Below are positions 26,576 through 48,767 of a stretch of 64,000 nucleotides of DNA, piece by piece. Below the pieces are notes generated by a model. The model was given only the letters and a program-made list of their open reading frames with translations, made no database searches and was not told where the DNA came from. Source of the DNA: Kineosporia mesophila (lineage in GTDB: Bacteria > Actinomycetota > Actinomycetes > Actinomycetales > Kineosporiaceae); contig NZ_JAJOMA010000003.1 in the NCBI RefSeq assembly GCF_021129235.1, forward strand, positions 186,001 to 250,000. The letters are read 5' to 3'. Each line of letters opens with the position of its first letter. Position 1 is the first letter of the stretch. Both the position numbers and the translations under genes were made by a program.

Positions 26576-26662
26576 TTCGTGATCATGCAAGGTGTCCCCA
26601 GCGTTCTAGAACTGTCACCGCCGGGGTTCTAGAACTCCGGGGACACCTTGCATGATCACGAA
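26576..26662. repeat. 87-bp palindromic element, copy A
   Basis: Perfect 24-bp arms (26576-26599 and 26639-26662) begin TTCGTGATCATGC and end GCATGATCACGAA. The core has two copies of the self-complementary GTTCTAGAAC. Same length and plan as copy B at 38306-38392. It lies between the SGNH hydrolase start and the fhuF-like stop and reaches 7 bp into the latter gene. Confidence 0.9.
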
Positions 26663-27357
26663 GGTGATGGGGAGGGGCTCGGTGCCCTGGCTGCCGCGTG
26701 GGCCTCCAGCCTCTCCCGGCGCTCGGCCGGGAGCTGGCGGGGGCAGCTGAGGCACTTACCCATCGGCACCCGGTAGATCAGGCAGCACGAGACCCGGTGC
26801 ACGTAGGTGCTCGGTGCAGCGCCGGGGCGACCTGGCACTTCGACGAAGCGGGGCGTGGGGCTCAGCGGCGAACAGGCGGCGGCGACCTGCGCGGCCAGGG
26901 CGGCCGGGTCGGGAGCCCGGGAGGCGAGCAGCCGGGTGGCCAGGGAATCGGCGGCGACCGCCCACAACGACTGGGACGTGACCTGGCCGACGTCACCGAG
27001 CGCCGCGATCACCGGGGCGAGGGCGGCATCGAGATGGCGGCCGAAGGCGGCGGGACCGGGGGCCAGGGGGTGTCCGGGTACGACCCGCTCCAGACCGGAC
27101 GGCCGCGCGGTCATCCGCAGCACCGCCGGGTCGAGCGAGAGGCCGGCCCCGAGCAGGACGAGTTCGTGGACGGACTGCCCGATCAGCACCGCACTCGTGG
27201 AGTACCACCAGAGGGTGGCGCTCAGGCGGGGCTCCTGGCAGCCGTAGAAGGTGCCTGTGTCACGCACCTGACCGGACAGCCAGTCACGATCCAGGAGCAG
27301 GCTGCCGGGCAGGAGACCGATGGGTTCGGGCAGACCGCCGGTGATGCCGACGGTCAT
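26656..27357 (-). CDS. FhuF-like (2Fe-2S) siderophore-iron reductase
   Basis: A 233-residue protein whose C-terminus has the FhuF-type 2Fe-2S cysteine pattern: CC at 191-192, C202 and C205 (RVSCCLIYR...KCLSCPR). E. coli FhuF reduces ferric siderophore iron in the cytoplasm. The final ten residues are a Pro/Ser repeat. ATG at 27357 is preferred over 27372 because GAGGGAG precedes it at a 6-nt spacing. It is followed upstream by rpsD and sits near a DUF2470 gene and a ferritin gene, forming an iron-handling neighbourhood. Confidence 0.8.
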   Translation of the reverse strand: MTVGITGGLPEPIGLLPGSLLLDRDWLSGQVRDTGTFYGCQEPRLSATLWWYSTSAVLIGQSVHELVLLGAGLSLDPAVLRMTARPSGLERVVPGHPLAPGPAAFGRHLDAALAPVIAALGDVGQVTSQSLWAVAADSLATRLLASRAPDPAALAAQVAAACSPLSPTPRFVEVPGRPGAAPSTYVHRVSCCLIYRVPMGKCLSCPRQLPAERRERLEAHAAARAPSPSPSPS

Positions 27358-27428
27358 GCCCGACTCCCTCATCGAGAAGAACTGAACACCCGGGTGACCA
27401 AGGTCACAGCTTTGGGGCAACGACCGTA

Positions 27429-27465
27429 GCGGTGCAGGAACCCAAAATTCCGGGCCCTGCACCGC
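27429..27465 (-). terminator. Hairpin downstream of rpsD
   Basis: GCGGTGCAGG (27429-27438) pairs perfectly with CCTGCACCGC (27456-27465) around a 17-nt loop, 73 nt past the rpsD stop. It may end rpsD transcription before the fhuF-like gene. Confidence 0.55.
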
Positions 27466-27537
27466 GTACGTCACCCGTGGAGGTGAACAGCCAGAGTGGT
27501 GCGAGGTGTTGCTGGGTGGTGCCGAGCTAGGAGCTGA

Positions 27538-28146
27538 TCAGCGCGAGTAGTACTCGACGACGAGCTGCTCGTTGCAGGTCACCGGAACCTCTTCGCGGAC
27601 CGGCAGGCGAACCAGCCGGGCGTGGAGCTGCGGGAGCAGCACCTCGAGGTAGGGCGGGGTGGTGGCCAGCTGGTGCGCACCGGCGGCCGCGACCTGGAAC
27701 GGTGCCTTGTTGCGGCTGCGCGGCGCGACCGCGATCACGTCTTCCGGCTTGACCTGGTACGACGGCTTGTCGACCAGGATGCCGTTGACGGTGATGTGAC
27801 GGTGAACCACGTTCTGGCGGGCCTGGTAGATGGTGCGGGCGAAGCCGCTGCGCAGCACCAGGGCGTCGAGACGGGTCTCGAGCGAGACGACCAGCGCCTC
27901 GCCGGTCTTCGAGGCGCCGCGGTGAGCCTTCTCGAAGGCCCGGGCCATCTGCGTCTCGCTGATGTTGTACTGGAAGCGCAGACGCTGCTTCTCGAGCAGA
28001 CGCACCTTGTAGTCCGAGGTGGACTTGCGCGCACGACCGTGGTCGCCCGGCGGGTAGGGGCGCTGCTCGAAGTACTTCACGCACTTCGGGGTGAGCGGGA
28101 TGCCGAGGGCGCGAGACAACTTCGCCTTGGGACGGGGGTTATTCAC
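27538..28146 (-). CDS. rpsD: 30S ribosomal protein S4
   Basis: A 202-residue primary rRNA-binding protein of the small subunit that nucleates 30S assembly. Seen: RPYPPGDHGR in the N-terminal domain, SDYKVRLLEKQRLRFQYN, and the S4 RNA-binding domain (RLDALVLRSGFARTIYQARQ...HRHITVNG). The N-terminal zinc-type cysteine set is absent (a single Cys in LTPKCVKY), so this is the zinc-free form. It stands outside the alpha operon, as in several actinobacteria. GTG at 28146 has GGAG 8 nt upstream. An iron box lies 20 bp upstream of its start. Confidence 0.96.
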   Translation of the reverse strand: MNNPRPKAKLSRALGIPLTPKCVKYFEQRPYPPGDHGRARKSTSDYKVRLLEKQRLRFQYNISETQMARAFEKAHRGASKTGEALVVSLETRLDALVLRSGFARTIYQARQNVVHRHITVNGILVDKPSYQVKPEDVIAVAPRSRNKAPFQVAAAGAHQLATTPPYLEVLLPQLHARLVRLPVREEVPVTCNEQLVVEYYSR

Positions 28147-28166
28147 TGACTGATCTCCACGGTAGT

Positions 28167-28185
28167 TTAGGTAAGGCTTACCTAT
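28167..28185. promoter_or_regulatory. IdeR/DtxR iron box between rpsD and the DUF2470 gene
   Basis: TTAGGTAAGGCTTACCTAT matches the 19-bp DtxR/IdeR consensus TTAGGTTAGGCTAACCTAA at 16 positions and is nearly a perfect palindrome. It sits in the 55-bp gap between the divergent starts of rpsD (28146) and the DUF2470 gene (28202), 16 nt before the latter. Iron-loaded IdeR binding here would be expected to repress the DUF2470 gene and might also affect rpsD. Confidence 0.85.
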
Positions 28186-28201
28186 GTTGCTGGAGGCGCA
28201 A

Positions 28202-28942
28202 GTGGACACCCGCACGCACACCCCCACCCGCCCGTCACAGGCGGAAAGAGCTCGAACTGTTCTGGCCGCGGCCGCCTCGGTGTCGGTCCGGTGGGACGGC
28301 GGTCGCGTTGACCTTCTCGGATGTCATCACGACGACCCGATGGGCGACGTGATCCTAACGCTAGAGACAAGCAGCACGTTAGCTCGGGCTGCTCAGGCAG
28401 CCCGAGGAACTTCCGAGGAAGATATTCCAGTCACCGTAGAGCTTACCGAACTCTGCGCGGTCAGTGTGCGCGACCGGGTCCGGTCACGCGTCTGCCTGGG
28501 TGGCTGGATGTCGCTCGCCCACCCCGCCCCACCGGGCCGGGCCGCCTCGACCGGGTCCGTCGGCCTGCGGATCGACGTGGCCGAAGTCATGCTCGAGGAG
28601 GACGGCCGCCACGACTGGGTCACCGTGGAGGACTACCGGCGCAGCGAGCCGGACCCCCTCCACCTCGGCGCCGCCGACCAGCTCCAGCACCTCGTCGCCC
28701 ATCATCCGGACGCGATCGTCACGCTGTCCCGGCTCTGCGAGCCCGAGGCGATGCTCGGGGTGATCAGGGTGATGCCGATCGCCCTCGACCGCTACGGCAT
28801 CGTGCTGCGGGTCGAGAAGCTCCGCGACCACACGGACGTCCGCCTGGCGTTTCGCCGCCGGGTCGACTCCGGCACGGAGGCGGCCGCCGAGCTACGACAT
28901 CTCCTGGCCGAGGGGAGCCGCCGCCGGCCGTGCGCCCGATGA
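28202..28942 (+). CDS. DUF2470 domain protein, iron-regulated
   Basis: A 246-residue protein matching the actinobacterial DUF2470 family: an N-terminal flavin-reductase-like split-barrel part (SQAERARTVLAAAASVSVRWDG) and a C-terminal DUF2470 part (EADQLQHLVAHHPD-like: AADQLQHLVAHHPDAI). DUF2470 is found at the C-terminus of HugZ-type haem oxygenases, so a haem or iron link is plausible but unproven. GTG at 28202 is chosen over ATG 28184 because GGAGG lies 5 nt upstream and the earlier ATG falls inside the iron box. Ferritin follows 54 bp downstream in the same direction. Confidence 0.82.
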   Translation: MDTRTHTPTRPSQAERARTVLAAAASVSVRWDGGRVDLLGCHHDDPMGDVILTLETSSTLARAAQAARGTSEEDIPVTVELTELCAVSVRDRVRSRVCLGGWMSLAHPAPPGRAASTGSVGLRIDVAEVMLEEDGRHDWVTVEDYRRSEPDPLHLGAADQLQHLVAHHPDAIVTLSRLCEPEAMLGVIRVMPIALDRYGIVLRVEKLRDHTDVRLAFRRRVDSGTEAAAELRHLLAEGSRRRPCAR

Positions 28943-28996
28943 CCGGTCTAGGGTGAAAAACTTCCCGATCGTCCCCGGACCGAAGGCGGAAGAGCC

Positions 28997-29533
28997 ATGT
29001 CGGACAAGGAATCGCCGTTCGTCACCCTGCTCCAGGAGCAGATCAACCACGAGTTCACCGCCCAGCAGCAGTACGTCGCCCTGGCGGTGTGGTTCGACGC
29101 ACGCGATCTTCCGCAGCTGGCCGGGTTCTACTACCGGCAGGCCGTCGAGGAGCGCAACCACGCGATGATGATGGTCAAGTACCTCCTGGACCGGGACATC
29201 CCGCCGCGGATCCCCGGCTTCGGCAACATCCGCAACGACTTCGGCGAGCCGACCGAACTGGTGGCCCTGGCCCTCGCCCAGGAAGAGACCGTCACCCGCC
29301 AGATCGAGGCGCTGTTCAAGGCGGCCCGGGACGGCGGTGACTTCCTGGGCGAGCAGTTCATGCTCTGGTTCCTCAAGGAGCAGGTCGAGGAGGTCGCCTC
29401 GATGCAGACGCTGCTGACCATCTGCGAGCGGGCCGGCACCGACTACTTCAAGATCGAGGACTTCGTGGCCCGGGAGACCGGGTCCGAGCCGGCCGACCCG
29501 TCCGCCCCGGCCGTGGCCGGGGGAGCTCTGTAA
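28997..29533 (+). CDS. Bacterial ferritin
   Basis: A 178-residue four-helix iron-storage protein that forms a 24-subunit shell. Ferroxidase-site features are present: Glu in NHEFTAQQQY (helix A), the E-x-x-H pair in EERNHAM (helix B), and Glu/Gln residues in ALAQEETVTRQ and FLKEQVEEV. No haem-binding Met as in bacterioferritin is evident. A short acidic/Ala tail follows helix E. ATG at 28997 has GGAAG close upstream. No separate iron box was found in the 54 bp before it; it may be read from the DUF2470 promoter as well as its own. Confidence 0.93.
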   Translation: MSDKESPFVTLLQEQINHEFTAQQQYVALAVWFDARDLPQLAGFYYRQAVEERNHAMMMVKYLLDRDIPPRIPGFGNIRNDFGEPTELVALALAQEETVTRQIEALFKAARDGGDFLGEQFMLWFLKEQVEEVASMQTLLTICERAGTDYFKIEDFVARETGSEPADPSAPAVAGGAL

Positions 29534-29587
29534 CCACAAGTGCATCAAACAATCCCAAAGTATTACAGGTAGGCTGTAGACGGACAG

Positions 29588-29619
29588 AGCGGGGCGTCTG
29601 TAATGCTGGGCGCCCCGCT
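29588..29619. terminator. Hairpin after ferritin
   Basis: AGCGGGGCG (29588-29596) pairs with CGCCCCGCT (29611-29619), 55 nt past the ferritin stop. No U-tract. Confidence 0.55.
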
Positions 29620-29705
29620 CCTCGCGTTCCCCCACTCCCGTTCGCCCTTGCTCGTACTGCCCTGCCGTCCGGCCTGCCGTCGAACCGTCGAAGGATTCCC
29701 CCCAG

Positions 29706-30116
29706 ATGACCCAGCGCTCCGCCCTGACCCCGCCGGACTCCCCGGCACCCACCCTGCCCTTCTCCGCCGGCGTGCGGGCGGGTAACACCGTGCAGGTCTC
29801 GGGTCAGGGCCCGACCGACCCCGCGACCGGTGAGTTCGTGCACCAGGGCGATGTGAAGGCCCAGACCCTGCGGGTGCTGGAGAACGTCGAGGCCGTGCTC
29901 AGCGCCGGTGGCGCCACGTTCGACGACGTGATCATGCTGCGCGTCTACCTCACCACCCGCGACCACTTCAGCGCGATGAACGAGGCCTACGCCGAATACC
30001 TCACCGCCCGCTGCGAGAGCGGCGTGCTGCCCTCGCGCACCACGGTGATGGTCGGCCTGCCCCACCCCGACATGCTGGTGGAGATCGACGCCCTGGCCGT
30101 CGTCGTCCGGAGCTGA
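29706..30116 (+). CDS. RidA family (YjgF/UK114) enamine/imine deaminase
   Basis: A 136-residue trimeric RidA-fold protein. RidA hydrolyses reactive 2-aminoacrylate-type enamines to protect PLP enzymes. The catalytic arginine context LPSRTTVMVGL is present, as are the VSGQGPTDP and QTLRVLENVEAVL blocks. ATG at 29706 has AAGGA 9 nt upstream. The next gene, a CoA ligase, starts 12 nt after its stop, so the two are probably cotranscribed. Confidence 0.9.
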   Translation: MTQRSALTPPDSPAPTLPFSAGVRAGNTVQVSGQGPTDPATGEFVHQGDVKAQTLRVLENVEAVLSAGGATFDDVIMLRVYLTTRDHFSAMNEAYAEYLTARCESGVLPSRTTVMVGLPHPDMLVEIDALAVVVRS

Positions 30117-30128
30117 TGAACTGACCGG

Positions 30129-31502: not shown

Positions 31503-31513
31503 GATCACTGCAT

Positions 31514-32452
31514 GTGAGAGACATCGCCATCTTCTCCGGCAGCGCCCACGTCGAGCTGGCGGAGGAAATCTGCCAGTACCTCTCCGTGCCGCTCCTTCCC
31601 TCGCGCACCTCACGCTTCGCGAACGACTGCCTCGAGGTCCAGTTGCAGGCCAACTGCCGCGAGCGTGACGTGTACCTGATCCAGCCGCTGGTTCCGCCGG
31701 TGCAGGACAATCTGGTCGAGCTGCTCCTGCTGCTCGACGCCGCCCGGGGGGCATCGGCCGCGCGCACCACCGTGGTGATGCCGCACTACGCCTACGCGCG
31801 CTCGGACAAGAAGGACGCCCCGCGCATCTCGATCGGTGGCCGTCTGGTCGCCGATCTGCTCAGCACCGCGGGGGCGGGGCGGGTCCTGACGATGACGCTG
31901 CACTCCCCCCAGGTGCACGGATTCTTCAGCGTCCCGGTCGATCACCTGCACGCTCTGCGGGAACTCGCGGCGCACTTCCAGCCGAACGACCTGTCCAACA
32001 CCGTCGTCGTCTCCCCCGACCTCGGTAACGCCAAGGCCGCCACGGCTTTCGCGCGCATCCTCGGGGTGCCGGTCGCGGCGGGCGCCAAGCAGCGCTTCTC
32101 CGACGACAAGGTCGTCATCACCGACATCATCGGCGACGTCCGGGGCCGCGACGTCATCGTCCTGGACGACGAGATCGCCAAGGGCAGCACCATTCTCGAG
32201 CTGCTCGACCGTCTGCGCGAGCGGGACGTGGGGCAGATCCGGGTGGCCTGCACGCACGGCCTGTTCTCCTCCGGCGCGCTCGACAAGCTCCAGGCCCAGG
32301 ACGACGTGCTCGAGGTGGTCTGCACCAACACCGTGCCGATCGGCAAGGACAAACACGTACCCAAGCTCACGGTGCTGTCGATCGCCCCCGCTCTCGCCGA
32401 GGCGATCCGCCGCATCCACAACGGCGAGTCGGTGTCGTCGCTGTTCCACTGA
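31514..32452 (+). CDS. Ribose-phosphate pyrophosphokinase paralogue
   Basis: A 312-residue member of the PRPP synthetase family, which transfers pyrophosphate from ATP to ribose 5-phosphate. The N-terminal half is canonical (IFSGSAHVELAEEI, VMPHYAYARSDKKDAPR). The C-terminal half departs from the housekeeping enzyme: the PRPP loop is VIVLDDEIAKGSTI instead of DDMIDTGGT, and the flexible-loop region reads GAKQRFSDDK rather than a KRR-type motif. It is probably a paralogue of altered activity, with the main prs gene elsewhere. GTG at 31514 lies 11 nt past matB; TAGGAT (31500-31505) could be an internal promoter giving a nearly leaderless mRNA. Confidence 0.8.
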   Translation: MRDIAIFSGSAHVELAEEICQYLSVPLLPSRTSRFANDCLEVQLQANCRERDVYLIQPLVPPVQDNLVELLLLLDAARGASAARTTVVMPHYAYARSDKKDAPRISIGGRLVADLLSTAGAGRVLTMTLHSPQVHGFFSVPVDHLHALRELAAHFQPNDLSNTVVVSPDLGNAKAATAFARILGVPVAAGAKQRFSDDKVVITDIIGDVRGRDVIVLDDEIAKGSTILELLDRLRERDVGQIRVACTHGLFSSGALDKLQAQDDVLEVVCTNTVPIGKDKHVPKLTVLSIAPALAEAIRRIHNGESVSSLFH

Positions 32453-32488
32453 CCTTCATGAATTGAGGACGATGCCGGGCGCGGGTTT

Positions 32489-32509: not shown

Positions 32510-32517
32510 CGGCCCGT

Positions 32518-35854: not shown

Positions 35855-35898
35855 CGTGCATGGTCACGGGCAGACCCTCCCTACCGTGACCATGCACG
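35855..35898. terminator. Large hairpin between convergent genes
   Basis: CGTGCATGGTCACGG (35855-35869) and CCGTGACCATGCACG (35884-35898) are perfect 15-bp arms with a 14-nt loop, between the EAL-protein stop (35827) and the TrmH-type stop (35910). Confidence 0.7.
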
Positions 35899-36735: not shown

Positions 36736-38235
36736 TTAGGGCGCCTGGGCTCCCCGGTGACGCTCCTGCTCCAGCAGCGCCTCGAGATCCTTCAGCCGGC
36801 CCATCCCGGCGTAGGAGCGGCTCATCCGGTGGTTGTTCGCGAACTCGTCGCGGTTGCGCTCCAGGAACGCCCAGTACCCGGCGGTGAACGGGCAGGCGTT
36901 CTCACCCACCCGTTTCTTCGGGTCGTACCGGCACCCGCCGCAGTGGTTGCTCATCCGGTGGATGTAGGCGCCACCGGCCGCGTAGGGCTTGGTCATCATG
37001 GCGCCGCCGTCGGCGTGCAGGGCCATCCCGACCACGTTCGGCACCATCACCCAGTCGTAGCCGTCGACGAAGTTCCGGTGGAACCAGTCGGTCACCGCCA
37101 CCGGGTCGTAACCCTGCTGCAGCGCCCAGTTCCCGAGAACCATCAGGCGCGGGATGTGGTGCGCCCACCCGTCCTGGCGCACCGAGGCCAGCGCGCTGGA
37201 CAGGCACTTGGCCTCCACCTCGCCGTCCGGGTCGAGGTCGGCGAACCACCGGGGCAGCGTCGTGCGGGCCCTGAGCTGGTTGCGCCGCCGGTAGTCGTCG
37301 CCGAAATGCCAGTAGACGTGCCAGACGTAGTCCCGCCAGCCCACCACCTGCCGCACGAAACCCTCGGTACTCGCGAGCCCCGCGTCCCCGTCCTTCCAGG
37401 CCTGTTCGGCCCTTCTGGCCACCTCGACCGGATGCAGCAGGCCGAGATTCAGGGGCACGGAGAGCAGGGAGTGGGCCATCCAGCGGTCGTCCTGCAGGAT
37501 GGCGTCCTCGTACGGGCCGAAGTCCTCCAGGCGCGTGGTCACGAACGACTCCAGCGCCTGCAGCGCCTCGTCCCGGGTGACGGCGAACCGGCGCGGCCCG
37601 TCGTCGCCGATGAACTCCACCCCCTCGGCGGCCCAGCGGTCGAGGTCGGCCCGCACCTCCTCGTCGATCGCGTCCTCCTGTGGCCACCACGGCTCGGGGA
37701 CGCCGGTGGCCTCCCCGAGCGTGGCGGTGCGGGGAGGGGGTTCGCGGTTGTCCTGGTCGTAGTTCCACCGTCCGCCGACCGGTTCCCCATCGCCCTCCAG
37801 GAGCAGGCGGTGATGCTTGCGGACGTCCCGGTAGAAGTCTTCCATCACCAGCTTGCGCCCCTGCCGGCGCTCGGCCCACTGCCCGAACTGCTCCTCCCCG
37901 ATCGCGAAACCGCGGGAGGGCAGCACCTCGATCGGCAGCTTCCCGACCAGGCGCCGGGCCGCGAACGTGGTGGGCGCGCAGACGCTGAGATTCTTCAGCG
38001 ACCTCGGCAGCCCTTCCTGGTAGGTGTCGACCCGCCGCACCTGGGCCCGGTCCCCCAGCTCGGCCGCCCGGTGCCGCAGGGCCGACAGCACCAGATGAGC
38101 CTTGCGCCGATGAAAGCGCCGCCGCTCGAACACCCGCCGCGACTCGATCAGCAGCACCGGCTGCTCGTCGTCGTCCAGAAAATGCGGCCCCAGCTGATCC
38201 GCGAACAACCAGCGCCGTCCCGTCGTATTCCCCAC
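36736..38235 (-). CDS. FeS-type bacterial cryptochrome/(6-4) photolyase-like protein
   Basis: A 499-residue flavoprotein of the deoxyribodipyrimidine photolyase-related (FeS-BCP/PhrB) family, which uses light to repair (6-4) photoproducts in DNA. Seen: N-terminal alpha/beta part RRWLFADQLGPHFL, a helical FAD domain with GWRDYVWHVYWHFGDDY, and a C-terminal cysteine set with CGGC and NACPF (plus an earlier Cys) matching the 4Fe-4S ligands. GTG 38235 (VGNTTGRRW) starts nearest the homology, but ATG 38316, inside the palindromic element and with a better GGGGAGG site, is in frame and would add 27 residues. The trmH-type gene follows 13 nt downstream. Confidence 0.85.
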   Translation of the reverse strand: MGNTTGRRWLFADQLGPHFLDDDEQPVLLIESRRVFERRRFHRRKAHLVLSALRHRAAELGDRAQVRRVDTYQEGLPRSLKNLSVCAPTTFAARRLVGKLPIEVLPSRGFAIGEEQFGQWAERRQGRKLVMEDFYRDVRKHHRLLLEGDGEPVGGRWNYDQDNREPPPRTATLGEATGVPEPWWPQEDAIDEEVRADLDRWAAEGVEFIGDDGPRRFAVTRDEALQALESFVTTRLEDFGPYEDAILQDDRWMAHSLLSVPLNLGLLHPVEVARRAEQAWKDGDAGLASTEGFVRQVVGWRDYVWHVYWHFGDDYRRRNQLRARTTLPRWFADLDPDGEVEAKCLSSALASVRQDGWAHHIPRLMVLGNWALQQGYDPVAVTDWFHRNFVDGYDWVMVPNVVGMALHADGGAMMTKPYAAGGAYIHRMSNHCGGCRYDPKKRVGENACPFTAGYWAFLERNRDEFANNHRMSRSYAGMGRLKDLEALLEQERHRGAQAP

Positions 38236-38305
38236 ACCGGCCACCCTGCCGCTACAGAGAGCAACCGCATCCCGAGACCGCCGGGACCCAGGTGGCCCCC
38301 AACCT

Positions 38306-38392
38306 TCCGTGATCATGCAAAACCTCCCCGGAGTTCTAGAACTCTCGCACCCACAGTTCTAGAACGCCGGGGAGGTTTTGCATGATCACGGA
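38306..38392. repeat. 87-bp palindromic element, copy B
   Basis: Perfect 26-bp arms (38306-38331 and 38367-38392), outer end TCCGTGATCATGCA, with two GTTCTAGAAC copies in the core. Each arm, read outward, contains GGGGAGG, 6 nt, ATG, then ATCACG. The leftward ATG (38316) is in frame with the photolyase gene. Confidence 0.9.
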
Positions 38393-38445: not shown

Positions 38446-39576
38446 GTGTCTCGATCCCCGCTGCCCGTGACCGGCCGGTTGCTGCTGACCTTCGTCATCG
38501 CCGTCGGGGTGCTCGTCCCGGCGGCCGGGACGGCCCGGGCCGCCTCCGTGAACGCGACCGACGCCGAGCGCCGGGCGGCGCGGGCGCGGGTTCGGGTCGA
38601 TCGGCTGGTGGATCAGTACGAGGAGGCGGAGAAGGCCGCGGCACGGCAGCTTTCGCGGGTTTCGCGGGCGTTCTCGGTGGCCGACGCGGCGAGCGCGGAC
38701 GCGCAGCGGCTGGGGCGGCTGGAACGCCGGGCCACGGTGCGGCGGGCTCAGGACGTGCGGGCCGTCTACGCCGCCGGTGGGGCGGCGGGGCTGATGGCGA
38801 CACTGTTGTCCGCGGACTCGCCCAGCGACGTGCTCTGGCGGCGCAGCACCAACGACCGGCTGCTGAAGAGCGTGCTCGACTCCGACCAGCAGGTCCTGCA
38901 CGACAGCCGGGCGGTGGCGCGGCGGGCCACGCAGAAGGTGGCGCAGGCCGCTGCGGCGGCGGACGAACAGTCGGCGGCGATGGGCGAACTACGGCAGGAC
39001 GCCGATCGGGCCCGGATCGCGCTCGCGAGGGCGCAGATGACGCTGGCCCGCCTGGATCGCCGGGCCCAGGAGGCCCGGGCGGCGCAGGAGGCCCGCGAGC
39101 GCATCGCACAGGCGCAGCGGGAGGCCCGGACCCGACGGCGCCGGGCCACGGGTGCTGTCACCGCGCTGGGGATCCCGGCCGAGTACCAGAGCGCGTACCA
39201 GGAGGCGGCGGGTACCTGTGCCGGGCTGCGCTGGACGCTGCTGGCGGCGGTGGGTCAGGTGGAGAGCGGGCACGGGCGCAACGTGGGGCCCTCGTCGGCG
39301 GGGGCGCAGGGGCCCATGCAGTTCATGCCGGCGACGTTCGCGGCCTACGGCGTGGACGGTGACCTGGACGGGGTGACGGACATCCAGGACCCCCAGGACG
39401 CGATCTTCTCGGCGGCGAAGTATCTGTGTGCCGGCGGGATCGGGCGGGGAACGGGAGACAGCGCGGCCCGGGACCGGGCCGCGCTGCTCACGTACAACCG
39501 GGCCGACTGGTACGTCGACCTGGTGCTCTCGGCCGAGCAGGCGATCATCGCCCGCGCGGCCGCGGTGGGCCAGTGA
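38446..39576 (+). CDS. Secreted coiled-coil lytic transglycosylase
   Basis: A 376-residue exported cell-wall enzyme. An N-terminal signal peptide (hydrophobic LLLTFVIAVGVLVP, cleavage probably after GTARA) is followed by a long Ala/Arg/Glu/Gln-rich coiled coil (about 40-235), then an SLT-type domain (about 245-360) with the catalytic Glu in VGQVESGHG and the QGPMQFMPATFAAY block. It should cleave peptidoglycan glycan strands. The arrangement resembles actinobacterial peptidoglycan hydrolases that pair a coiled coil with a catalytic domain. The start is uncertain: GTG 38446 lies almost on top of GGAGG; GTG 38467 would shorten the signal peptide. Confidence 0.85.
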   Translation: MSRSPLPVTGRLLLTFVIAVGVLVPAAGTARAASVNATDAERRAARARVRVDRLVDQYEEAEKAAARQLSRVSRAFSVADAASADAQRLGRLERRATVRRAQDVRAVYAAGGAAGLMATLLSADSPSDVLWRRSTNDRLLKSVLDSDQQVLHDSRAVARRATQKVAQAAAAADEQSAAMGELRQDADRARIALARAQMTLARLDRRAQEARAAQEARERIAQAQREARTRRRRATGAVTALGIPAEYQSAYQEAAGTCAGLRWTLLAAVGQVESGHGRNVGPSSAGAQGPMQFMPATFAAYGVDGDLDGVTDIQDPQDAIFSAAKYLCAGGIGRGTGDSAARDRAALLTYNRADWYVDLVLSAEQAIIARAAAVGQ

Positions 39577-42119: not shown

Positions 42120-42932
42120 ATGCTCCTGCTGCCACGGTCCGCCCGTCTCGCCGCCTGGGGCACGGCCGTGCTCGCGGACGGCGCGGACCCGGCCCAGGCC
42201 GTCCGCGCCGTCACCCGTGACGACGAACCGCACCAGGTCACGGCCGACTTCGAGGTCGCGGCCACGCTGGGCCTGCCGCCCGCGGGCAGCCTGCTCGACC
42301 TGCTCCTCAGCCTGCAACGGCACGGCACCCCCTCGCTGCACGTGGCCCTCCCCGCGCCCGGCGACCTGCTCGGGCTGCCGGGCCCGCCGGCGTTCAACGA
42401 GGCGGCCGTGGACACCGGTGAGGCGGTTCTCGCCGGCGACGGCGTCAACGACCCGGCCGGCCCGGCCATCGGGCTCACGGCCGAGATCACCGAATTCGGT
42501 TCGGTCTACGAGCCCGGCGCGATGGTGACGTGGAAGGCGCAGTCGGTGGGGCGCCGCCGGGTCACCGACATCGGCAGCGTCGCGGACGCCGACCGCGAGC
42601 TGCGCTCGGCCCTGACCGAGGCGGTCGAGGAACTGGCCCGGCTCGACGTGGCCCGCTGGCGCGACGACGCCGCCGACCGGGTCGCGGCCATCCGCGACGG
42701 CGGCCTGGAGACCGGCATGATCCCCCCGACCACGCCGAAACGCGTGGTGCAGGTGCTGTCCCGGGCCGCCCGGGTGCGCGCGATCGTCGAGCTGGCGAGC
42801 GAGGACGACGGCGCGGCGGTCACCCAGGCCGAGGCCCAGCGGCGCAGTCAGGCGCTACGCCGTCTCGACGCGGTCTCCCGCCGGGCGATGGTCGCGGCCG
42901 TCAACGGCATCAAGGAACCCGAGGACGACTAG
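42120..42932 (+). CDS. Conserved actinobacterial protein of unknown function
   Basis: A 270-residue soluble protein that I recognise only as an actinobacterial conserved hypothetical. The N-terminal two thirds look globular (ARLAAWGTAVLADGADPAQAV, VRAVTRDDEPH). Residues 165-265 are a helical, charged region rich in Ala, Arg and Glu with possible coiled coil. No signal peptide or membrane helix. It is transcribed divergently from the ABC ATPase gene. No function is claimed. Confidence 0.8.
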   Translation: MLLLPRSARLAAWGTAVLADGADPAQAVRAVTRDDEPHQVTADFEVAATLGLPPAGSLLDLLLSLQRHGTPSLHVALPAPGDLLGLPGPPAFNEAAVDTGEAVLAGDGVNDPAGPAIGLTAEITEFGSVYEPGAMVTWKAQSVGRRRVTDIGSVADADRELRSALTEAVEELARLDVARWRDDAADRVAAIRDGGLETGMIPPTTPKRVVQVLSRAARVRAIVELASEDDGAAVTQAEAQRRSQALRRLDAVSRRAMVAAVNGIKEPEDD

Positions 42933-42953
42933 GCGAGCACGGCCCCTGTCCTC

Positions 42954-43003
42954 GTTCGTGATCATGCCGACGTTCCCCGGGGAAGGTCGGCACGATCACG
43001 AAC
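42954..43003. repeat. Shorter palindrome of the CGTGATCATGC family
   Basis: GTTCGTGATC (42954-42963) pairs with GATCACGAAC (42994-43003); inside, TGCCGAC pairs with GTCGGCA and TTCCCC with GGGGAA. The outer end GTTCGTGATCATGC is shared with the 87-bp elements, but the GTTCTAGAAC core is absent. It lies between convergent stops (42932, 43079) and probably acts as a terminator. Confidence 0.7.
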
Positions 43004-43078
43004 AGCGGGACCTCGAGCGCAGGATGGCCCGACAGTGCCGGCCGCCCACCCGCCGGGGGCACCTCCCGGGCTGGGATC

Positions 43079-44269
43079 TCAATTCACCGACAGCACCGAG
43101 CGGTAGACCTCGATCGTCGTCTCCGAGATGGCGTCCCAGGAGAAGTGGCTCTCGGCGCGCTGCCGGCCGGCGCGGCCCCAGGCCCGGGCCCGCTCCGGGT
43201 CGGCGCAGACCTCGGTCAGCGCCGCGGCCAGGTCGGCCACGAACTTCTCCGGATCCAGCGGGGTTCCGGTGCCGTCGTCGACCTGCTCGATCGGCACCAG
43301 CCGGCCGGTGACGCCGTCCTGCACGACCTCCGGGATACCGCCCGTGGCCGTGCCGACCACGGCCGCCTCACAGGCCATGGCCTCCAGGTTCACGATGCCC
43401 AGCGGCTCGTAGACCGACGGGCAGACGAACGCGGTGGCGGCGGAGAGCACGGTGCACAGCTCGTCGCGAGGCAGCATGCGCTGGATCCAGACCACGCCGT
43501 CGCGGGTCCGGCCCAGCTCCTCCACCAGCGAGGAGACCTCGGCCCTGATCTCCGGGGTGTCGGGGGCCCCGGCGCAGAGCACCAGCTGGATCTCCGGCGG
43601 CAGCAGGGCCGCGGCGCGCAGCAGGTAGGGCAGGCCCTTCTGCCGGGTGATGCGGCCGACGAAGACCACACTCGGCCGGGTGGGGTCGATACCCAGCGAC
43701 CGCACGGTCGCCTCGTCCTCAATTCTCTTCCAGCCCGACAGGTCGATGCCGTTGTGCACGACCTTGACCTTGTCCGGGTCGACCGAGGGGTAGGACCGCA
43801 GGATGTCGTCACGCATGCCCGCGCTGACCGCGATCACCGCGGCCGCCGCCTCGTAGGCGGTCTTCTCGGCCCACGAGCTCAGCGCGTACCCGCCGCCGAG
43901 CTGCTCGGCCTTCCACGGCCGCAGCGGCTCCAGGCTGTGCGCGGTGAGCACGTGGGGCACGCCGTGCAGCAGGGAGGCCAGGTGCCCGGCGAGGTTGGCG
44001 TACCAGGTGTGGGAGTGCACCAGGTCGGCCCCGGCGCAGTCGGCGGCGATGGCCAGATCGACCCCGAAGGTGCGCAGGGCGGGGTTGGCCGCGGCCAGCG
44101 TGGCCGGCTCCGGATAGGCCGTCACCGACCGTTCGTCGCGTGGTTCGCCGAAGGTGCGGACCTCCACCTCGATCTGGCGGCGGAGCACCTCCACGAGATT
44201 CTGCACGTGAACACCCGCCCCTCCATAGACATCCGGCGGGTATTCACGGGAGAGAACGTCGACGCGCAT
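43079..44269 (-). CDS. glgM: GT4 glycogen/maltose-1-phosphate synthase (GlgA/GlgM type)
   Basis: A 396-residue GT-B glycosyltransferase of family GT4. Seen: N-terminal SREYPPDVYGGAGVH, the HSHTWYANLAGH block, and the C-terminal nucleotide-sugar site VCPSVYEPLGIVNLEAMA. In mycobacteria the equivalent gene (Rv1212c) beside glgC makes alpha-maltose 1-phosphate from ADP-glucose and glucose 1-phosphate, hence the GlgM label; older annotation calls it glycogen synthase GlgA. ATG 44269 is 7 nt after TACGGT (44277-44282), so the mRNA is probably leaderless. It is divergent from glgC with 47 bp between starts. Confidence 0.88.
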   Translation of the reverse strand: MRVDVLSREYPPDVYGGAGVHVQNLVEVLRRQIEVEVRTFGEPRDERSVTAYPEPATLAAANPALRTFGVDLAIAADCAGADLVHSHTWYANLAGHLASLLHGVPHVLTAHSLEPLRPWKAEQLGGGYALSSWAEKTAYEAAAAVIAVSAGMRDDILRSYPSVDPDKVKVVHNGIDLSGWKRIEDEATVRSLGIDPTRPSVVFVGRITRQKGLPYLLRAAALLPPEIQLVLCAGAPDTPEIRAEVSSLVEELGRTRDGVVWIQRMLPRDELCTVLSAATAFVCPSVYEPLGIVNLEAMACEAAVVGTATGGIPEVVQDGVTGRLVPIEQVDDGTGTPLDPEKFVADLAAALTEVCADPERARAWGRAGRQRAESHFSWDAISETTIEVYRSVLSVN

Positions 44270-44304
44270 GCTGCCCACCGTAGTGCGACAACGAGCCGAC
44301 GCCA

Positions 44305-44316
44305 TACAGTCAGCAC
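44305..44316 (+). promoter_or_regulatory. -10 box for leaderless glgC mRNA
   Basis: TACAGT (44305-44310) plus 6 nt precedes ATG 44317. On the other strand TACGGT (44277-44282) serves glgM, so both promoters fit in a 47-bp gap. Confidence 0.6.
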
Positions 44317-45558
44317 ATGGCGAATCCGAAGGTTCTGGCGATCGTTCTGGCCGGCGGGGAGGGCAAGCGGTTGATGCCACTGACGTTAGACCGCGCCAAA
44401 CCCGCTGTTCCCTTCGGAGGCGTCTACCGTCTCGTCGATTTCGCGCTGAGCAATCTGGTCAATTCCGGGTACCTGCGAATCGTGGTGCTCACCCAGTACA
44501 AGAGCCACAGCCTCGACCGGCACATCGCGCAGGCCTGGCGGATGTCGACGCAGCTGGGCAACTACATCGCGCCGGTCCCGGCGCAGCAGCGGGTGGGCAA
44601 GCGCTGGTACCTGGGCAGCGCGGACGCGATCTTCCAGAGCCTCAACCTGGTGAACGACGAGAAGCCCGACATCGTCGTGGTGGTCGGCGCCGACCACGTG
44701 TACCGCATGGACTTCGCCGCGATGGTGCAGCAGCACATCGAGTCGGGCGCGGGCTGCACGGTCGCGGGGATCCGCACCCCCATCGAGGAGGCCAACCAGT
44801 TCGGTGTGATCAAGACCCACGACGAGGACCCGCGGCGCATCGAGGCGTTCCTGGAGAAGCCGGAGAATCCGGTCGGCCTGCCCGACTCCCCGAACGAGGT
44901 GCTCGCCTCGATGGGCAACTACGTGTTCGATGCCAAGGCCCTGATCGAGGCCGTGACCAGCGACTCCGACGACCCGGGCTCGCGGCACGACATGGGCGGC
45001 GACATCGTGCCCTACTTCGTCGGCCGGGGTGAGGCCGCGGTGTACGACTTCAAGGACAACGATGTGCGCGGCTCCACCGACCGCGACCGCCACTACTGGC
45101 GGGACGTCGGCACCATCGAGGCCTACTTCGAGGCCCAGATGGACCTGGTCTCCGTGCACCCGGTGTTCAACCTCTACAACTACGACTGGCCGCTGTACAC
45201 CCACCAGGGCCCGTGGCCCCCGGCCAAGTTCGTGCACGGCTGGCAGGGCCGTATCGGGCACGCGGTGAACTCGATCGTCTCCCCCGGCACCGTGGTCTCG
45301 GGGGCGTTCGTGGAGAGCTCGGTGCTCTCGCCCAACGTGAACGTGCGCTCGTGGTCCACGGTCAGCGAGAGCGTGCTGATGGACGGCGTCGACATCGGCC
45401 GTCACGCCGTGGTGCGCCGCGCGATCCTCGACAAGAACGTGGTGGTGCCCGAGGGCGCCCGCATCGGCATGGACCCGGTGGCCGACCGCGAACGCGGTTT
45501 CGTGGTCACCGAGTCCGGCATCACGGTGGTCGGCAAGGGTCAGCGCGTCACCGTGTAA
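44317..45558 (+). CDS. glgC: Glucose-1-phosphate adenylyltransferase
   Basis: A 413-residue ADP-glucose pyrophosphorylase, the committed step that supplies ADP-glucose to glycogen and maltose-1-phosphate synthesis. Seen: [11 protein letters not shown] (residues 11-21) at the nucleotide loop, [19 protein letters not shown], the [14 protein letters not shown] block, EKPENP with the substrate Lys, and a C-terminal left-handed beta-helix of hexapeptide-like repeats. Full length. Divergent from glgM, consistent with a shared pathway. Confidence 0.96.
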
Positions 45559-45572
45559 TTACCCGTGCGAAC

Positions 45573-45612
45573 GCGAATGGTCACGCCTAGAGTGCGATGC
45601 GTGACCATTCGC
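45573..45612. promoter_or_regulatory. 14-bp perfect inverted repeat bracketing a -10 box and start codon
   Basis: GCGAATGGTCACGC (45573-45586) and GCGTGACCATTCGC (45599-45612) are perfect arms with a 12-nt spacer. The spacer contains TAGAGT (45588-45593), 7 nt before the GTG start at 45601, which lies in the right arm. If transcription starts at 45601 the left arm is not in the mRNA, so this is better read as a DNA operator over the promoter. Confidence 0.6.
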
Positions 45613-46371
45613 ATCGGGGTACAGATTCAGCCGCAGCACGCGGACTACGCCGACATCCGCCGGGCGGTGGCGGAGGCCGAGGAGATCGGCGTCGACATCG
45701 CCTTCAACTGGGACCACTTCTTCCCGCTCTACGGTGAGGCCGACGGCAAGCACTTCGAGTGCTGGACCATGCTCGGCGCCTGGGCGGAGGCGACGTCGCG
45801 CATCGAGATCGGTGCGCTCGTCACCTGCAACAGCTACCGCAACGCCGACCTGCTGGCCGACATGGCCCGCACCGTGGACCACATCTCGAACGGCCGCCTG
45901 ATCCTCGGGATCGGCGCGGGCTGGTTCGAGCGCGACTACGACGAGTACGGCTACGACTTCGGCACCGCGGGCACCCGTCTCGCCGACCTGGAGCAGGCCC
46001 TGGCGCGCATCGAGGCCCGCTGGCAGAAGGTGAACCCGGCGCCCACGCGCGACATCCCGATCCTGATCGGCGGGGGCGGCGAGAAGAAGACGCTGCGCTA
46101 CACCGCGCGCCATGCCGACATCTGGCACACCTTCGGCGATGTCGAGGTGCTGAAGCGCAAGAGCGCGATCCTCGACGAGTGGTGCGACACCGAGGGCCGG
46201 CCCAGCTCCGCCGTCGAGCGCTCGATCGGCGTGGACAAGGCCCCCGACGAGGTCGGCGAGGAACTCGTCGCCGCGGGCGCCAACCTCTTCACCGTCGGGC
46301 TGAACGGGCCCGGCTACGACATGGGGCTGGTGCGCGAGTGGGTGGCCTTCCGCGATTCCCAGAAAGCTTGA
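45601..46371 (+). CDS. LLM-class F420-dependent oxidoreductase
   Basis: A 256-residue luciferase-like TIM-barrel flavin/F420 enzyme. Seen: IRIGVQIQPQ at strand 1, FNWDHFFPLYG, EIGALVTCNSYRN, NGRLILGIGAGWFERDY and ILIGGGGEKKTLR, all typical of actinobacterial F420-dependent family members. F420 rather than FMN use is inferred from family resemblance. GTG 45601 is preferred over the in-frame start at 45565 because of the -10 spacing and because homology begins at VTIRIG. The substrate is unknown. The 14-bp inverted repeat over its promoter suggests specific repression. Confidence 0.85.
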   Translation: MTIRIGVQIQPQHADYADIRRAVAEAEEIGVDIAFNWDHFFPLYGEADGKHFECWTMLGAWAEATSRIEIGALVTCNSYRNADLLADMARTVDHISNGRLILGIGAGWFERDYDEYGYDFGTAGTRLADLEQALARIEARWQKVNPAPTRDIPILIGGGGEKKTLRYTARHADIWHTFGDVEVLKRKSAILDEWCDTEGRPSSAVERSIGVDKAPDEVGEELVAAGANLFTVGLNGPGYDMGLVREWVAFRDSQKA

Positions 46372-46402
46372 GAACGCGGACGGGCCCCCTGGGCGGGTAG
46401 GT

Positions 46403-46440
46403 GTGGGGAGGGCCCTGGTGCGGGCCAGGGCCTTCCCCAC
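46403..46440. terminator. Hairpin after the F420-type oxidoreductase gene
   Basis: GTGGGGAGGGCCCTGG (46403-46418) pairs with CCAGGGCCTTCCCCAC (46425-46440) with one mismatch and a 6-nt loop. Confidence 0.7.
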
Positions 46441-47045
46441 GGCTGAGGTGAGTTCCCTCGTCCTCTCTTTCCGAACGGTCAGCACCGCCGTCCGGACCGG
46501 CCCGGCGTTGTCGACCTGACCGGTGAAGGTCACCGCGGTGTCCCGGGAGGGCCGGCTGGTGGCGGCGTTCATCGTCAGCGGGGTGGCACCGGCCGGGACG
46601 ATGTACGGCCCCTGTGGATCGGCCGTGAACGCCGAGCTGGTCTGCACACTGACGTATACATGCCGCCCGAGGGGGCCGGGGCGCTGAAGGTGTATCCGAG
46701 GGTGGTCGGCCTACCACCCTTCACCGTGGACGCCCCCAGGGTGAACCCGGTGACCACGGGTGCGGGGGCCGACGGCGTGAGCTTGATGCTGTAGTGCCCG
46801 GCGTCACCCTGGATGGTGCGGGTACACCTCCTGGTCGAGGGTGATGACGAGGATCCGGCAGCGGCCCACGGTGAGCGGGGTGGTGATGCTGCGCCCGCTC
46901 GTGGAGGGACGCAGGAGTGCACGTCCACGGCCTCGGCCGTATCGGCCCGCCCCCCGGTGGCGGTGAACTCGAACCCGTCCTGGTCCCGCACGAAGGCCTT
47001 GCCGGGCAGGATGTCCCGGCTCCGGCAGATGGCCCTAGGACCTTC
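46441..47045 (-). pseudogene. Frameshifted secreted protein remnant with Ig-like repeats
   Basis: Protein-like sequence on the minus strand hops between frames. From right to left: AFVRDQDGFEFTATGG... (about 47010-46920), then SGRSITTPLTVGRCRILVITLDQEVY in another frame (about 46900-46825), then GDAGHYSIKLTPSAPAPVVTGFTLG...GYTFSAPAPSGGMY (about 46805-46655), then VQTSSAFTADPQGPYIVPAGATPL...DTAVTFTGQVDNAGPV (46647-46480). The last two segments look like extracellular Ig/Fn3-type beta-sandwich repeats. At least three frame changes are needed and no N-terminus remains. No single open frame covers it, so I call it a decayed gene. Confidence 0.55.
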
Positions 47046-47056
47046 TGTCCGGCTTC

Positions 47057-47686
47057 CTAGGAGCGGCGCGCGCGGAACACCGTGTCGTGGATCGTGATGT
47101 CGCGGCCCTCGGGATCCTTCGCCGGACGCGGCCGGGCCTGGGACGTGATCACCTCCCAGCCGGTGAGGTCCAGGGCGGCGGCGATCTGCTCGGCCGTCCA
47201 GAAGGCGTCGGGCAGGTCGGGGCGGCCCATCGTCGTGGCCAGGTCGAGCGGGCTGTGCAGTACGACCAGCAACTGGCCGCCGGGGGCCACGGCCGAGGCC
47301 AGGCGGCGGAACGGGCCCGCCTCGGTGGGGTGCACGAAATGGCTCGTCACCAGGTCGTACTGGCCTCGCGGCGGCTGCCACGAGCGCAGGTCGGCGTGCA
47401 CCCACTCGGTGCGGGTGGCGATGTCCTGCCCCAGCTCCGCGGCCCGGGCCTCGTTCTTCTCCAGCACCACCCGGGAGAAGTCGGCCCCCGTGACCCGCCA
47501 GCCCCGCGCCGCCAGCCAGAACACGTCGCCGCCCTCGCCGCAGCCGGCGTCCAGCGCCGAGCCCGGTTCCAGACCCTCGACCTCGGTCACCAGCTGCGGG
47601 TTGACGTTGCCGCTGAAGACCCGGTCGCTGCCGCGGTAGCGTTCCTCCCAGGCCGGGGCCTCGAACCAGACGTGGTGGTCGGTCAT
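47057..47686 (-). CDS. Class I SAM-dependent methyltransferase
   Basis: A 209-residue methyltransferase resembling the TehB/thiopurine methyltransferase group. Motif I is ALDAGCGEGGD (about 44), the acidic residue is in VTGADFS, motif II/III region is YDLVTSHFVHP and LLVVLHSPLD. ATG 47686 has GGAGG 7 nt upstream and overlaps the stop of the flavoprotein gene (ATGA), so the two are translationally coupled. Detoxification of small thiols or metalloids is a plausible guess from the family. Confidence 0.85.
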   Translation of the reverse strand: MTDHHVWFEAPAWEERYRGSDRVFSGNVNPQLVTEVEGLEPGSALDAGCGEGGDVFWLAARGWRVTGADFSRVVLEKNEARAAELGQDIATRTEWVHADLRSWQPPRGQYDLVTSHFVHPTEAGPFRRLASAVAPGGQLLVVLHSPLDLATTMGRPDLPDAFWTAEQIAAALDLTGWEVITSQARPRPAKDPEGRDITIHDTVFRARRS

Positions 47687-48633
47687 TTCGCTGCCTCCAC
47701 GGCCCGGCCCGCGTCCTCGAGGATCAGGTCGTAGTTGATCTGCGAACCGGCCATCAGCCCGGCCCCGGCGGAGATGACGACCTGCGCGGCCATCGAGGCG
47801 ACGTTGCCGGCCGCCCACACGCCGGGCACATTCGTCTTCCCGGTGGCGGGATCGGCCTGCACCGAGGTCCCCAGCACGGCGCCCTCCACCACCATCTCGG
47901 TGATCTCCAGGCCGAGGCCCTCAAGCCCGGCGACCCGGGCGCCGAAGCGCGGCGCGACGACCACGACCTCCCGCTCCACCACCTCGCCCGACGCCAGCCG
48001 CACCCCGGTGACCCCCTCGTCCTTCATCTCCACCGCGGCGACCTCTCCCTCGACCACCCGCACGCCGAGCGCGGCCAGCCGGCCGAGAGCATCGGCCCCG
48101 AGGTCGGGCACCGTGTGGGTGAACACCACCACGTCGTCCGAGAGCTGCCGGAACATCAGCGCCTGGTGCATCACCAGGGGAGTCGAGGCGAGCACCCCGA
48201 TCGCCCGCCCCCGGTGCTCGTAACCGTGGCAGTAGGGACAGTGGATGACGTCCTTGCCCCAGCGCGCGGCCAGGCCCTCGACGGCGGGCAGCTCGTCGCG
48301 CAGACCGGTGGCCAGCAGGAGGCGGCGGGCCTGCACGCTCTCACCGCTCTCCAGGGTGACGACGAACCCGTCGCCGGCGGGCCGGGCATCGGTCACGACC
48401 CCGGGCACCACCTCTCCCCCATAGCCCTCGAGCTCCTGGCGCCCGTCGGCCACCAGGTCGAGCGGCGAGGTGCCCTCGCGGCCCAGGTAGTTGTGCATCG
48501 CCTCGGCCGGGGCGTTGCGCGGGTCGCCCGCGTCCACCACCAGCACCGATCGCAGCGACCGGGCCAGGGTGACGGCGCCGCTGAGACCCGCCGCCCCTCC
48601 ACCGATGACCACGACGTCGTAGCTGTTCCTCAT
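47683..48633 (-). CDS. Thioredoxin-reductase-like FAD/NAD(P) oxidoreductase
   Basis: A 316-residue two-dinucleotide-fold flavoprotein. GGGAAG (11-16) binds FAD, the redox motif CPYC lies at 132-135 (within HCPYCHGYEH), and the C-terminal block GVWAAGNVA completes the FAD site. The CPYCHGYE version of the motif is typical of a branch distinct from housekeeping TrxB, often next to XRE-cupin regulators. ATG 48633 has GAGGAGG upstream. It is divergent from such a regulator (48757) and overlaps the downstream methyltransferase gene. The electron partner is unknown. Confidence 0.88.
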   Translation of the reverse strand: MRNSYDVVVIGGGAAGLSGAVTLARSLRSVLVVDAGDPRNAPAEAMHNYLGREGTSPLDLVADGRQELEGYGGEVVPGVVTDARPAGDGFVVTLESGESVQARRLLLATGLRDELPAVEGLAARWGKDVIHCPYCHGYEHRGRAIGVLASTPLVMHQALMFRQLSDDVVVFTHTVPDLGADALGRLAALGVRVVEGEVAAVEMKDEGVTGVRLASGEVVEREVVVVAPRFGARVAGLEGLGLEITEMVVEGAVLGTSVQADPATGKTNVPGVWAAGNVASMAAQVVISAGAGLMAGSQINYDLILEDAGRAVEAAK

Positions 48634-48685
48634 CGTTCCTCCTCGTCGGCCTGCTTCCTCCGAGAGTGCCTCCGGGATTCCGGTC

Positions 48686-48715
48686 TTGACAAACCTTGTT
48701 GCTGGAACGGCAAAT
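48686..48715. promoter_or_regulatory. Promoter/operator between flavoprotein and XRE-cupin genes
   Basis: TTGACA (48686-48691) could be a -35 for the rightward gene (18 nt to GCAAAT at 48710). TTGC (48699-48702) and GCAA (48710-48713) form a short inverted repeat over the spacer that could be the regulator's site. Confidence 0.4.
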
Positions 48716-48730
48716 GGACGCATGAAGAGA

Positions 48731-48767
48731 GTTCTAGAACGCCGGGGAGATTTTGCATGATCACGGA
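48731..48767 (+). repeat. Half copy (C) of the palindromic element, supplying RBS and start codon
   Basis: These 37 bp equal the right half of copy B (GTTCTAGAAC core, CCGGGGAG, TTTTGCATG, ATCACGGA) with one substitution at 48750. The left half is absent. GGGGAG (48744-48749) and ATG (48757-48759), 7 nt apart, are used by the XRE-cupin gene. Confidence 0.88.

Follow-up and report, generated by a model that had tools for sequence, protein, structure and literature searches.

A 64,000-nucleotide stretch of the Kineosporia mesophila genome (contig NZ_JAJOMA010000003.1, positions 186,001 to 250,000; hereafter the window) holds palindromes that share the same ends and, in some copies, carry two 10-bp GTTCTAGAAC boxes between their arms, which raises the question of what such an element is for and why it should display one box twice. 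We propose, with a probability of roughly 0.58, that these palindromes are transcript-end hairpins, a subset of which displays the twin operator of a GntR/HutC-type repressor. Features that can be observed directly lead to this proposal: the identity of the core boxes to a promoter site, the constraint on them, the position of the elements and their predicted stability as hairpins.

The first-pass annotation of this DNA had claimed four palindrome copies, and all of them were found where it had placed them (. denotes no strand assigned):

26578..26660, strand. : twin-box hairpin element, 83 bp (arms, RGH, box, TST, N7, mirror image), aligned as L157:12578-12660
26603..26612, strand. : left GTTCTAGAAC box of this element, identical to the box at the trpBA promoter
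26626..26635, strand. : right GTTCTAGAAC box of this element
38308..38390, strand. : twin-box hairpin element, 83 bp, in a divergent gap
38333..38342, strand. : left GTTCTAGAAC box of this element
38356..38365, strand. : right GTTCTAGAAC box of this element
38292..38307, plus strand: C-rich tract outside the left arm of this element, matching the family composition
42957..43000, strand. : coreless hairpin, 44 bp, in a convergent gap (stop at 42932; glycosyltransferase end at 43079)
48731..48765, minus strand: half copy, a lone unit carrying one box, where an XRE-cupin regulator gene (HTH_3, Cupin_2) begins

In the window, GTTCTAGAAC with at most one mismatch was found 5 times (0.38 expected) and the arm word CGTGATCATGC with at most two mismatches 56 times (21.5 expected), counts reached by 0 of 100 shuffles in either case. 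The palindromes at 26576, 38306 and 42954 are predicted to fold at −79.7, −90.8 and −45.6 kcal/mol, with z scores against shuffles of −9.8, −12.6 and −4.65, respectively; the half copy at 48731 folds no better than shuffles (z +1.2).

The family extends far beyond the window copies. The strict unit CGTGATCATGC-N7-CCCC has 164 + 169 = 333 copies in this 7.78-Mb genome (G000) and 156 + 171 = 327 in G005, a sister species within the genus (identity in syntenic blocks mostly about 90–96%), and the reversed-pattern control has 0 + 0 copies in G000. The other four genus members have 0–2 strict units each, and 23–71 copies of the looser CGTGATCAKGC against 573 in G005. Twin boxes (GTTCTAGAAC-N10-16-GTTCTAGAAC) occur at 75 sites in G000, 70 in G005 and 1 in G003, with none in the remaining 55 genomes of the 58-genome relative set. 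The earlier descriptions of a dispersed multi-copy palindrome and of a regulatory element are both supported, and these genome-wide counts show that the window copies do not stand alone, the outcome that would have told against the earlier reading.

The anatomy of the element was read from a 1.17-Mb sample of G000 (contig C23 plus 800 kb mostly chosen around twin copies, and hence enriched). Of the 69 paired elements in it, 47 measure exactly 83 bp and 10 measure 44 bp, the remainder having other lengths. Each unit consists of a C-rich, G-poor tract (C 0.48 and G 0.12 over the 16 bases outside the arm in G000), CGTGATCATGC and a lineage-specific half; in the 83-bp element the order is C-rich tract, CGTGATCATGC, AAAACCT, CCCC, RGH, GTTCTAGAAC, TST, followed by seven variable letters and the mirror image, which places the two boxes 23 bp apart centre to centre with a 13-nt spacer. 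Interiors are swappable between these ends, with no box (mostly 40–44 bp), one box (60–62 bp), two boxes (83 bp) or a GGCCTTCGGCC-type hairpin (73–74, 104 and 112 bp). Composite elements with a CCCCCAGCCTTCGGCCGGGAGGTGCCCCC-type hairpin in the interior or in one of the arms occur at L210:4776, L213:5791, L214:17274, L303, L309 and L312, and at L149:12015 and L180:5563 the same ends enclose another core (CGAATGGTCTGTC-like or ACAGACCATTCTGTGG), which may be a second site that was captured. The dyad does not extend into the outer flanks, where 6.5 of 16 positions are complementary in a copy's own flanks and 7.0 in swapped ones.

One twin-box site each in G000, G005 and G003 is not a hairpin and is the source of the operator reading. 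In G003 it is the single twin-box site; it has no hairpin arms and lies immediately upstream of trpB, and in G000 and G005 armless twin boxes likewise precede a trpB-trpA-gntR operon, in all three genomes as exact boxes with a 12-nt spacer. The order in this region is box, TTGAC (TTGCG in G000), box, TACGGT or TTAGGGT, ATG, so that, judged by eye, TTGAC is −35-like and the second box appears to sit between −35 and −10; an operator-like site would thus stand at the promoter (assigned in this way) of a regulator-encoding operon in G000, G005 and G003. In G001 and G004, GTTCTATAAC and GTTCTAGAAC precede trpB. The trpBA pair is an extra copy, another full-length trpB being present in G000 at C12. 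The third gene of the operon in G000 (L199:9275-10018, minus strand) encodes a GntR + UTRA protein (PF00392, E 2.8e-18; PF07702, E 3.1e-24), whose nearest PDB relatives are NagR/YvoA (2.5e-21) and DasR; the corresponding proteins of G005 and G003 begin in the same way. In NagR, Arg38 reads G-5 and Arg48 reads G-4 of half-sites 6 nt apart (PMC4333415). The G000 protein keeps Arg38 and has Leu in place of Arg48 (in VTLMT, a stretch shared with the G005 and G003 proteins); in the box, GT-TCTAGA-AC, G-5 is retained, T stands instead of G at −4, and the half-sites are 6 nt apart. The predicted recognition residues therefore fit the box, an agreement rather than a blind prediction since it was noticed after the link had been made, and the GTTCTAGAAC pair is probably the operator of the trpB-trpA-gntR repressor. 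The first-pass annotation had remarked neither on the operator-like match at trpBA nor on the occurrence of CGTGATCATGC in other families with different inner halves.

Constraint on the boxes is seen in orthologues. Sixteen twin elements of G005 had sufficient flanking sequence for comparison: 8 are matched by an orthologous twin in the G000 sequence compared, at 2 sites that sequence has the flanks without a twin, and for 6 it does not include the flanks. The 8 orthologous twins show 0/176 changes in the outer motif, 1/64 in CCCC, 2/160 in the boxes, 9/112 in the inner arms, 4/48 in RGH, 7/48 in TST and 16/56 in the N7 loop (boxes versus loop, p 7e-9; boxes versus their flanks, p 5e-4). The loop varies among the 47 aligned paralogues at fixed length, yet is similar in most orthologues (40/56 letters alike), so either the paralogues are ancient or each arose with a distinct loop; hypermutation of the loop was dropped on the same grounds. 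Compensatory change, which had been claimed for the arms from the window copies, holds for arm pairs 12–17, where, among 282 cells in 47 copies, 15 carry changes on both sides and 11 are unpaired, and fails beside the boxes, where 34/47 (columns 25/59) and 32/47 (columns 37/47) are unpaired, a pattern more in keeping with a pair of protein sites than with a stem. Taken over the entire stem, pairing reaches 94.0%, no more than with shuffled partners (mean 94.5%; 479 of 500 shuffles equal or exceed it), and 8 pairs are changed on both sides against 5.2 in shuffles (11/500 shuffles). Compensated changes are also found between orthologues in G005 (C-G to G-C at C23:18588, A-T to G-C at C23:80038, several at C23:106865) and at two L308 copies compared between G000 and G005. 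These changes are not decisive, because template-switch repair of palindromes could yield them without selection.

Position points to gene ends. Genes were called in the sample with a simple in-house caller (1,056 genes, 89% coding). Gaps of any length that hold units are convergent in 33 cases, tandem in 25 and 18, and divergent in 15, against 80 convergent, 163 and 149 tandem, and 148 divergent among all sample gaps of at least 60 bp. Paired copies lie mostly directly behind stop codons: for the 25 in convergent gaps the hairpin starts a median of 18 and 17 bp from the two stops, and in tandem gaps 23/30 are closer to the upstream stop than to the next start. Twin copies outside genes (46) are convergent in 16 cases, tandem in 19 and divergent in 11; coreless copies are convergent in 8, tandem in 10 and divergent in 0/18, with 2 more inside a called gene (twin versus coreless, divergent or not, Fisher p 0.026). 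Units in the G000 sample are mostly intergenic, with 160 between genes and 13 within them, and in mixed-strand gaps units face inward in 60/65 cases in G000 (5 outward), 10/12 in G005 and 23/23 in small samples of other lineages. A strict sense-orientation rule was discarded, as antisense arrays exist in tandem gaps; inward pointing mostly holds instead. The C-rich, G-poor tract upstream of the arm recurs in all eight genome sets (C 0.44–0.71, G 0.10–0.22), that of G186 being a single intergenic unit.

Five family groups of the class, and Planotetraspora as well, have related units, which stand singly, in direct arrays or in inward pairs. Across 394 genomes of the class (a set without G005 and G007), more than one strict unit was found only in G000 (343), G016 (29) and G034 (15), and for the shorter word KTGATCATGM, G013 (444 in 3.1 Mb) and G186 (360 in 4.3 Mb) also far exceed the level seen in general; G194 and G435 lie above it as well, and the stretches of them that were examined hold no unit array. 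The other lineages share the C-rich tract and (C/G)GTGATCATGC(A), and differ in the second half: ATCCCGCCACC in direct arrays in G013, CGTTCGCCCC in arrays of 31–44 bp in G016, CGCCAGCCCAC in G034, GATCCTGGG in G186, and longer palindromes in G152 and G168, while G007, of the same family as G000, has 42-bp hairpins, CGTGATCATGCACTTTCGA. Gene context in G186 was left aside because gene calls there are poor (7/8 units fall in called genes). In named genomes, at least 93 stretches have matches, and among the 22 loci examined arrays occur only in nine Planotetraspora loci, Planotetraspora sp. A-T 1434 having unit arrays with a period of 52–53 bp; an Actinomadura locus has an outward pair. The Planotetraspora arrays at L051, L078, L106, L113, L128, L135, L136 and L138 have a period of about five helical turns, and several converge toward the middle of the gap. 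In G016, G013 and Planotetraspora the TGA inside CGTGATCATGC is in several cases the called stop of the adjacent gene (distance −4), and in G013 (L222–L225) a conserved GCAGAATGCTGGGTTGGTGGCGCGACACGCC-like stretch follows many units. Carriage by phage was set aside after a search of viral contigs, not extended to plasmid and phage record collections, gave 32 stretches with single matches that, by sequence, mostly resemble coding DNA, as was the ARG box: a Streptomyces ArgR paper contains CGTGATCATGC once, but its 20-bp box differs.

We therefore envisage each arm as a directional unit made up of the C-rich, G-poor tract, CGTGATCATGC, a variable inner arm and CCCC, two of which, facing inward, would form a stable hairpin that most likely ends or protects transcripts from both sides. 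In the large 83-bp subset of G000 and its sister species, the two GTTCTAGAAC boxes between the arms would be copies of, or would have converged on, the twin operator at the auxiliary trpB-trpA-gntR promoter, and in each element repressor dimers would most likely sit on both boxes. A repressor bound at a gene end could be an effector-released roadblock added to the hairpin, and in divergent gaps it could act on nearby promoters. Roadblocking is known for LacI (PMC4132739), and trimming of Rho-ended transcripts by exonuclease halts at stable structure (PMC12350095); by analogy, termination may involve Rho together with 3′-end protection at the hairpins. A wider form of the proposal, which we put forward tentatively and regard as rather doubtful, would make the GntR repressor a genome-wide boundary factor at about 70 hairpins, at transcript ends and divergent promoters alike, with one effector switching termination or insulation at dozens of unrelated loci, and the hairpin itself one dialect of a CGTGATCATGC transcript-end signal that is patchy over several families.

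Several points weigh against the proposal of transcript-end hairpins with a repressor's operator. The hairpins lack a following U-tract, since the flank is G-rich and shows no more than a short T-enriched spot, and this sets them apart from canonical intrinsic terminators. The 11/46 twin copies in divergent gaps do not fit a pure terminator. Box identity among the 47 aligned 83-bp copies is inflated because 39 of them came from stretches fetched for the exact twin pattern, and the left box is mismatched in 4/47; moreover the boxes belong to the stem as well, and constraint on the stem could by itself preserve them. The spacer is 13 nt in the element and 12 nt at the promoter. G001 and G004 keep the twin operator but have a different gene behind trpA; in G002, 3.9 kb contained one imperfect box and no called GntR gene, a regulator elsewhere not having been searched for; and G003 has operator and regulator, yet its twin boxes have not spread (1 site).

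The strongest of the rival accounts holds that the hairpins are selfish or neutral, with ends recognised by a mobilising enzyme and a free cargo interior that picked up the operator by chance, the copies being at most repressor decoys. Constant ends around interiors with no box, one box, two boxes or a GGCCTTCGGCC hairpin speak for it, as does the lineage-specific expansion, and copies do come and go between sister species. Of 37 G000 unit gaps in two syntenic blocks, 15 have no orthologous gap in the G005 sequence compared; of the remaining 22, 15 have a unit in G005 (at most two mismatches) and 7 have none there, a few of the single units compared being one-mismatch, coding-edge matches. At L310:8782 G005 is 128 bp longer and has an element with no counterpart in G000, an outward pair at C1 is a clean insertion into an otherwise intact site, and at G005 C10r 273265 (gap of 85 versus 5 bp) a single-unit insert is bordered by CCAGCCCC on both sides; at other sites the entire gap differs between the two genomes. 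Despite this presence and absence, the miniature inverted-repeat transposable element (MITE) suggested by the first-pass annotation finds no support in target-site duplications of paired copies: 0 of the 47 have a flanking 7-mer direct repeat (1.4 expected) and there is no excess at k = 3, 4, 5, 6 or 8. Its other suggestion, a repetitive extragenic palindromic (REP) element, fails in the strict sense for want of a Y1/RAYT (REP-associated tyrosine transposase) gene in the genome: the Y1 family (PF01797) has 0 members in G000 (97% complete), and the control was positive in 5 of 14 named genomes. Three gene spans flanked by units occur in the 1.27 Mb examined, and of the two whose genes were searched (an AbiEi-like/restriction endonuclease (REase)-like gene and an MscS channel) neither is a transposase. 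With boxes and ends strongly constrained while the loop drifts, we regard a selfish origin as unlikely, if worth serious attention. At L211:14962-16086 (C1 of G000), two inward half elements with boxes flank the AbiEi_4/REase-like gene, and the intervening segment is inverted in G005 (L302), so copies appear to recombine.

A plainer account would keep the 3′-end hairpins, as Rho-assisted terminators or exonuclease barriers, and make GTTCTAGAAC a mere stem segment whose match at trpBA has no function. The position behind stops, the C-rich, G-poor tract that precedes the arm in every lineage sampled and resembles Rho loading sites, and the halting of exonuclease at stable structure (PMC12350095) all speak for it. 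A pure stem, however, would need neither a repeated 10-mer with a 13-nt spacer nor flanks resembling those of a promoter site, about two thirds of copies leave the box-flanking positions unpaired, and hairpins exist that have no box at all (the 44-bp copies and G007), which makes this account improbable in our judgement. Least credible is recognition of CGTGATCATGC at the DNA level, as an uptake signal or nucleoid-protein site with the hairpins as by-products: it would explain why the same 11-mer is found in several families, its lack of change in orthologues (0/176) and the phased Planotetraspora arrays, but units are mostly intergenic (160 versus 13 in genes) and inward-facing (60 versus 5 outward), a placement unlike that of uptake sequences, and we give this account very little weight.

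In the window, the element at 26578 has a tandem context between two minus-strand genes, and its right arm contains the called stop of gene 26656-27357. The element at 38308 lies between a photolyase-related gene (36736-38244, minus strand) and an SLT transglycosylase gene (38467-39576, plus strand); none is present at the corresponding G005 site, and the coreless hairpin at 42957 is also missing from G005. In the half copy, of which a diverged version is retained in G005, an ATG at 48757 is in frame with the XRE-cupin gene. This element end, GGGGAGGTTTTGC-ATG-ATC-ACG, supplies a Shine-Dalgarno-like GGAGG and an ATG (48757-48759 in the window; also L147:16078-16160, L185, L196 and L205), and several neighbouring genes are called from such an ATG, with proteins that begin MIT, although these starts may be an artefact, because the gene caller rewards them. 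One further pair was found:

35858..35895, strand. : diverged outward-facing pair, GCATGGTCACG ... CGTGACCATGC, in a convergent gap; partly conserved in G005

A separate palindrome, GCGAATGGTCACG ... CGTGACCATTCGC, lies at 45573-45612 between two plus-strand genes. Known RNA families were also considered: the window has no Rfam match at gathering score, and over five loci there were three weak matches (E up to 1), each under its gathering score.

With what looks like a double repressor site in dozens of hairpins, one ordinary repressor may reach many gene boundaries. If the repressor binds, a local operon regulator would control transcript boundaries genome-wide through a repeated element, a direct example of a regulon spread by repeats, for which the sister species supplies ready-made occupied and empty sites. 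More generally, an 11-bp word at gene ends in several families, with lineage-specific second halves, offers a handle on how transcripts may end in high-GC genomes without U-tracts. Searches of open-licence papers by sequence string (over 5.39 million of them) and by word found no report of the element itself, as judged among the matches listed from title and opening of the abstract, nor of dozens of hairpins that carry the twin operator of a metabolic repressor, which is no proof that neither is in print. Repeated palindromes enclosing a protein site do have precedent, in the REP forms with an integration host factor (IHF) site, and what appears to be new is the metabolic repressor's operator in hairpins.

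Among known systems, REP elements and bacterial interspersed mosaic elements (BIMEs), including the RIP and RIB forms, are likewise dispersed intergenic palindromes in hundreds of copies, mainly at gene 3′ ends, some with an IHF site; the family described here differs in having no Y1/RAYT transposase and in that its site is a metabolic repressor's operator-like pair rather than a nucleoid-protein site. MITEs share the short non-coding form, terminal inverted repeats and presence/absence polymorphism, but here 47 paired copies lack target-site duplications and the part examined holds no parental transposase. Intrinsic and Rho-dependent terminators also place a stable hairpin behind stops, after a C-rich tract, whereas these hairpins have no U-tract, share a family sequence and are putative terminators. 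Inverted DNA uptake sequences act as terminators in Neisseria, and, like the present units, place a repeated word of about 11 bp in opposed pairs at gene ends, the outer part varying by lineage, but the units here are rare in genes. GntR/HutC operators, the dre sites of NagR and DasR, have in common with the boxes a TCTAGA-centred palindrome, a 6-nt half-site distance and a related regulator; here G-4 is replaced by T alongside the change of Arg48 to Leu, and the site is repeated in dozens of hairpins.

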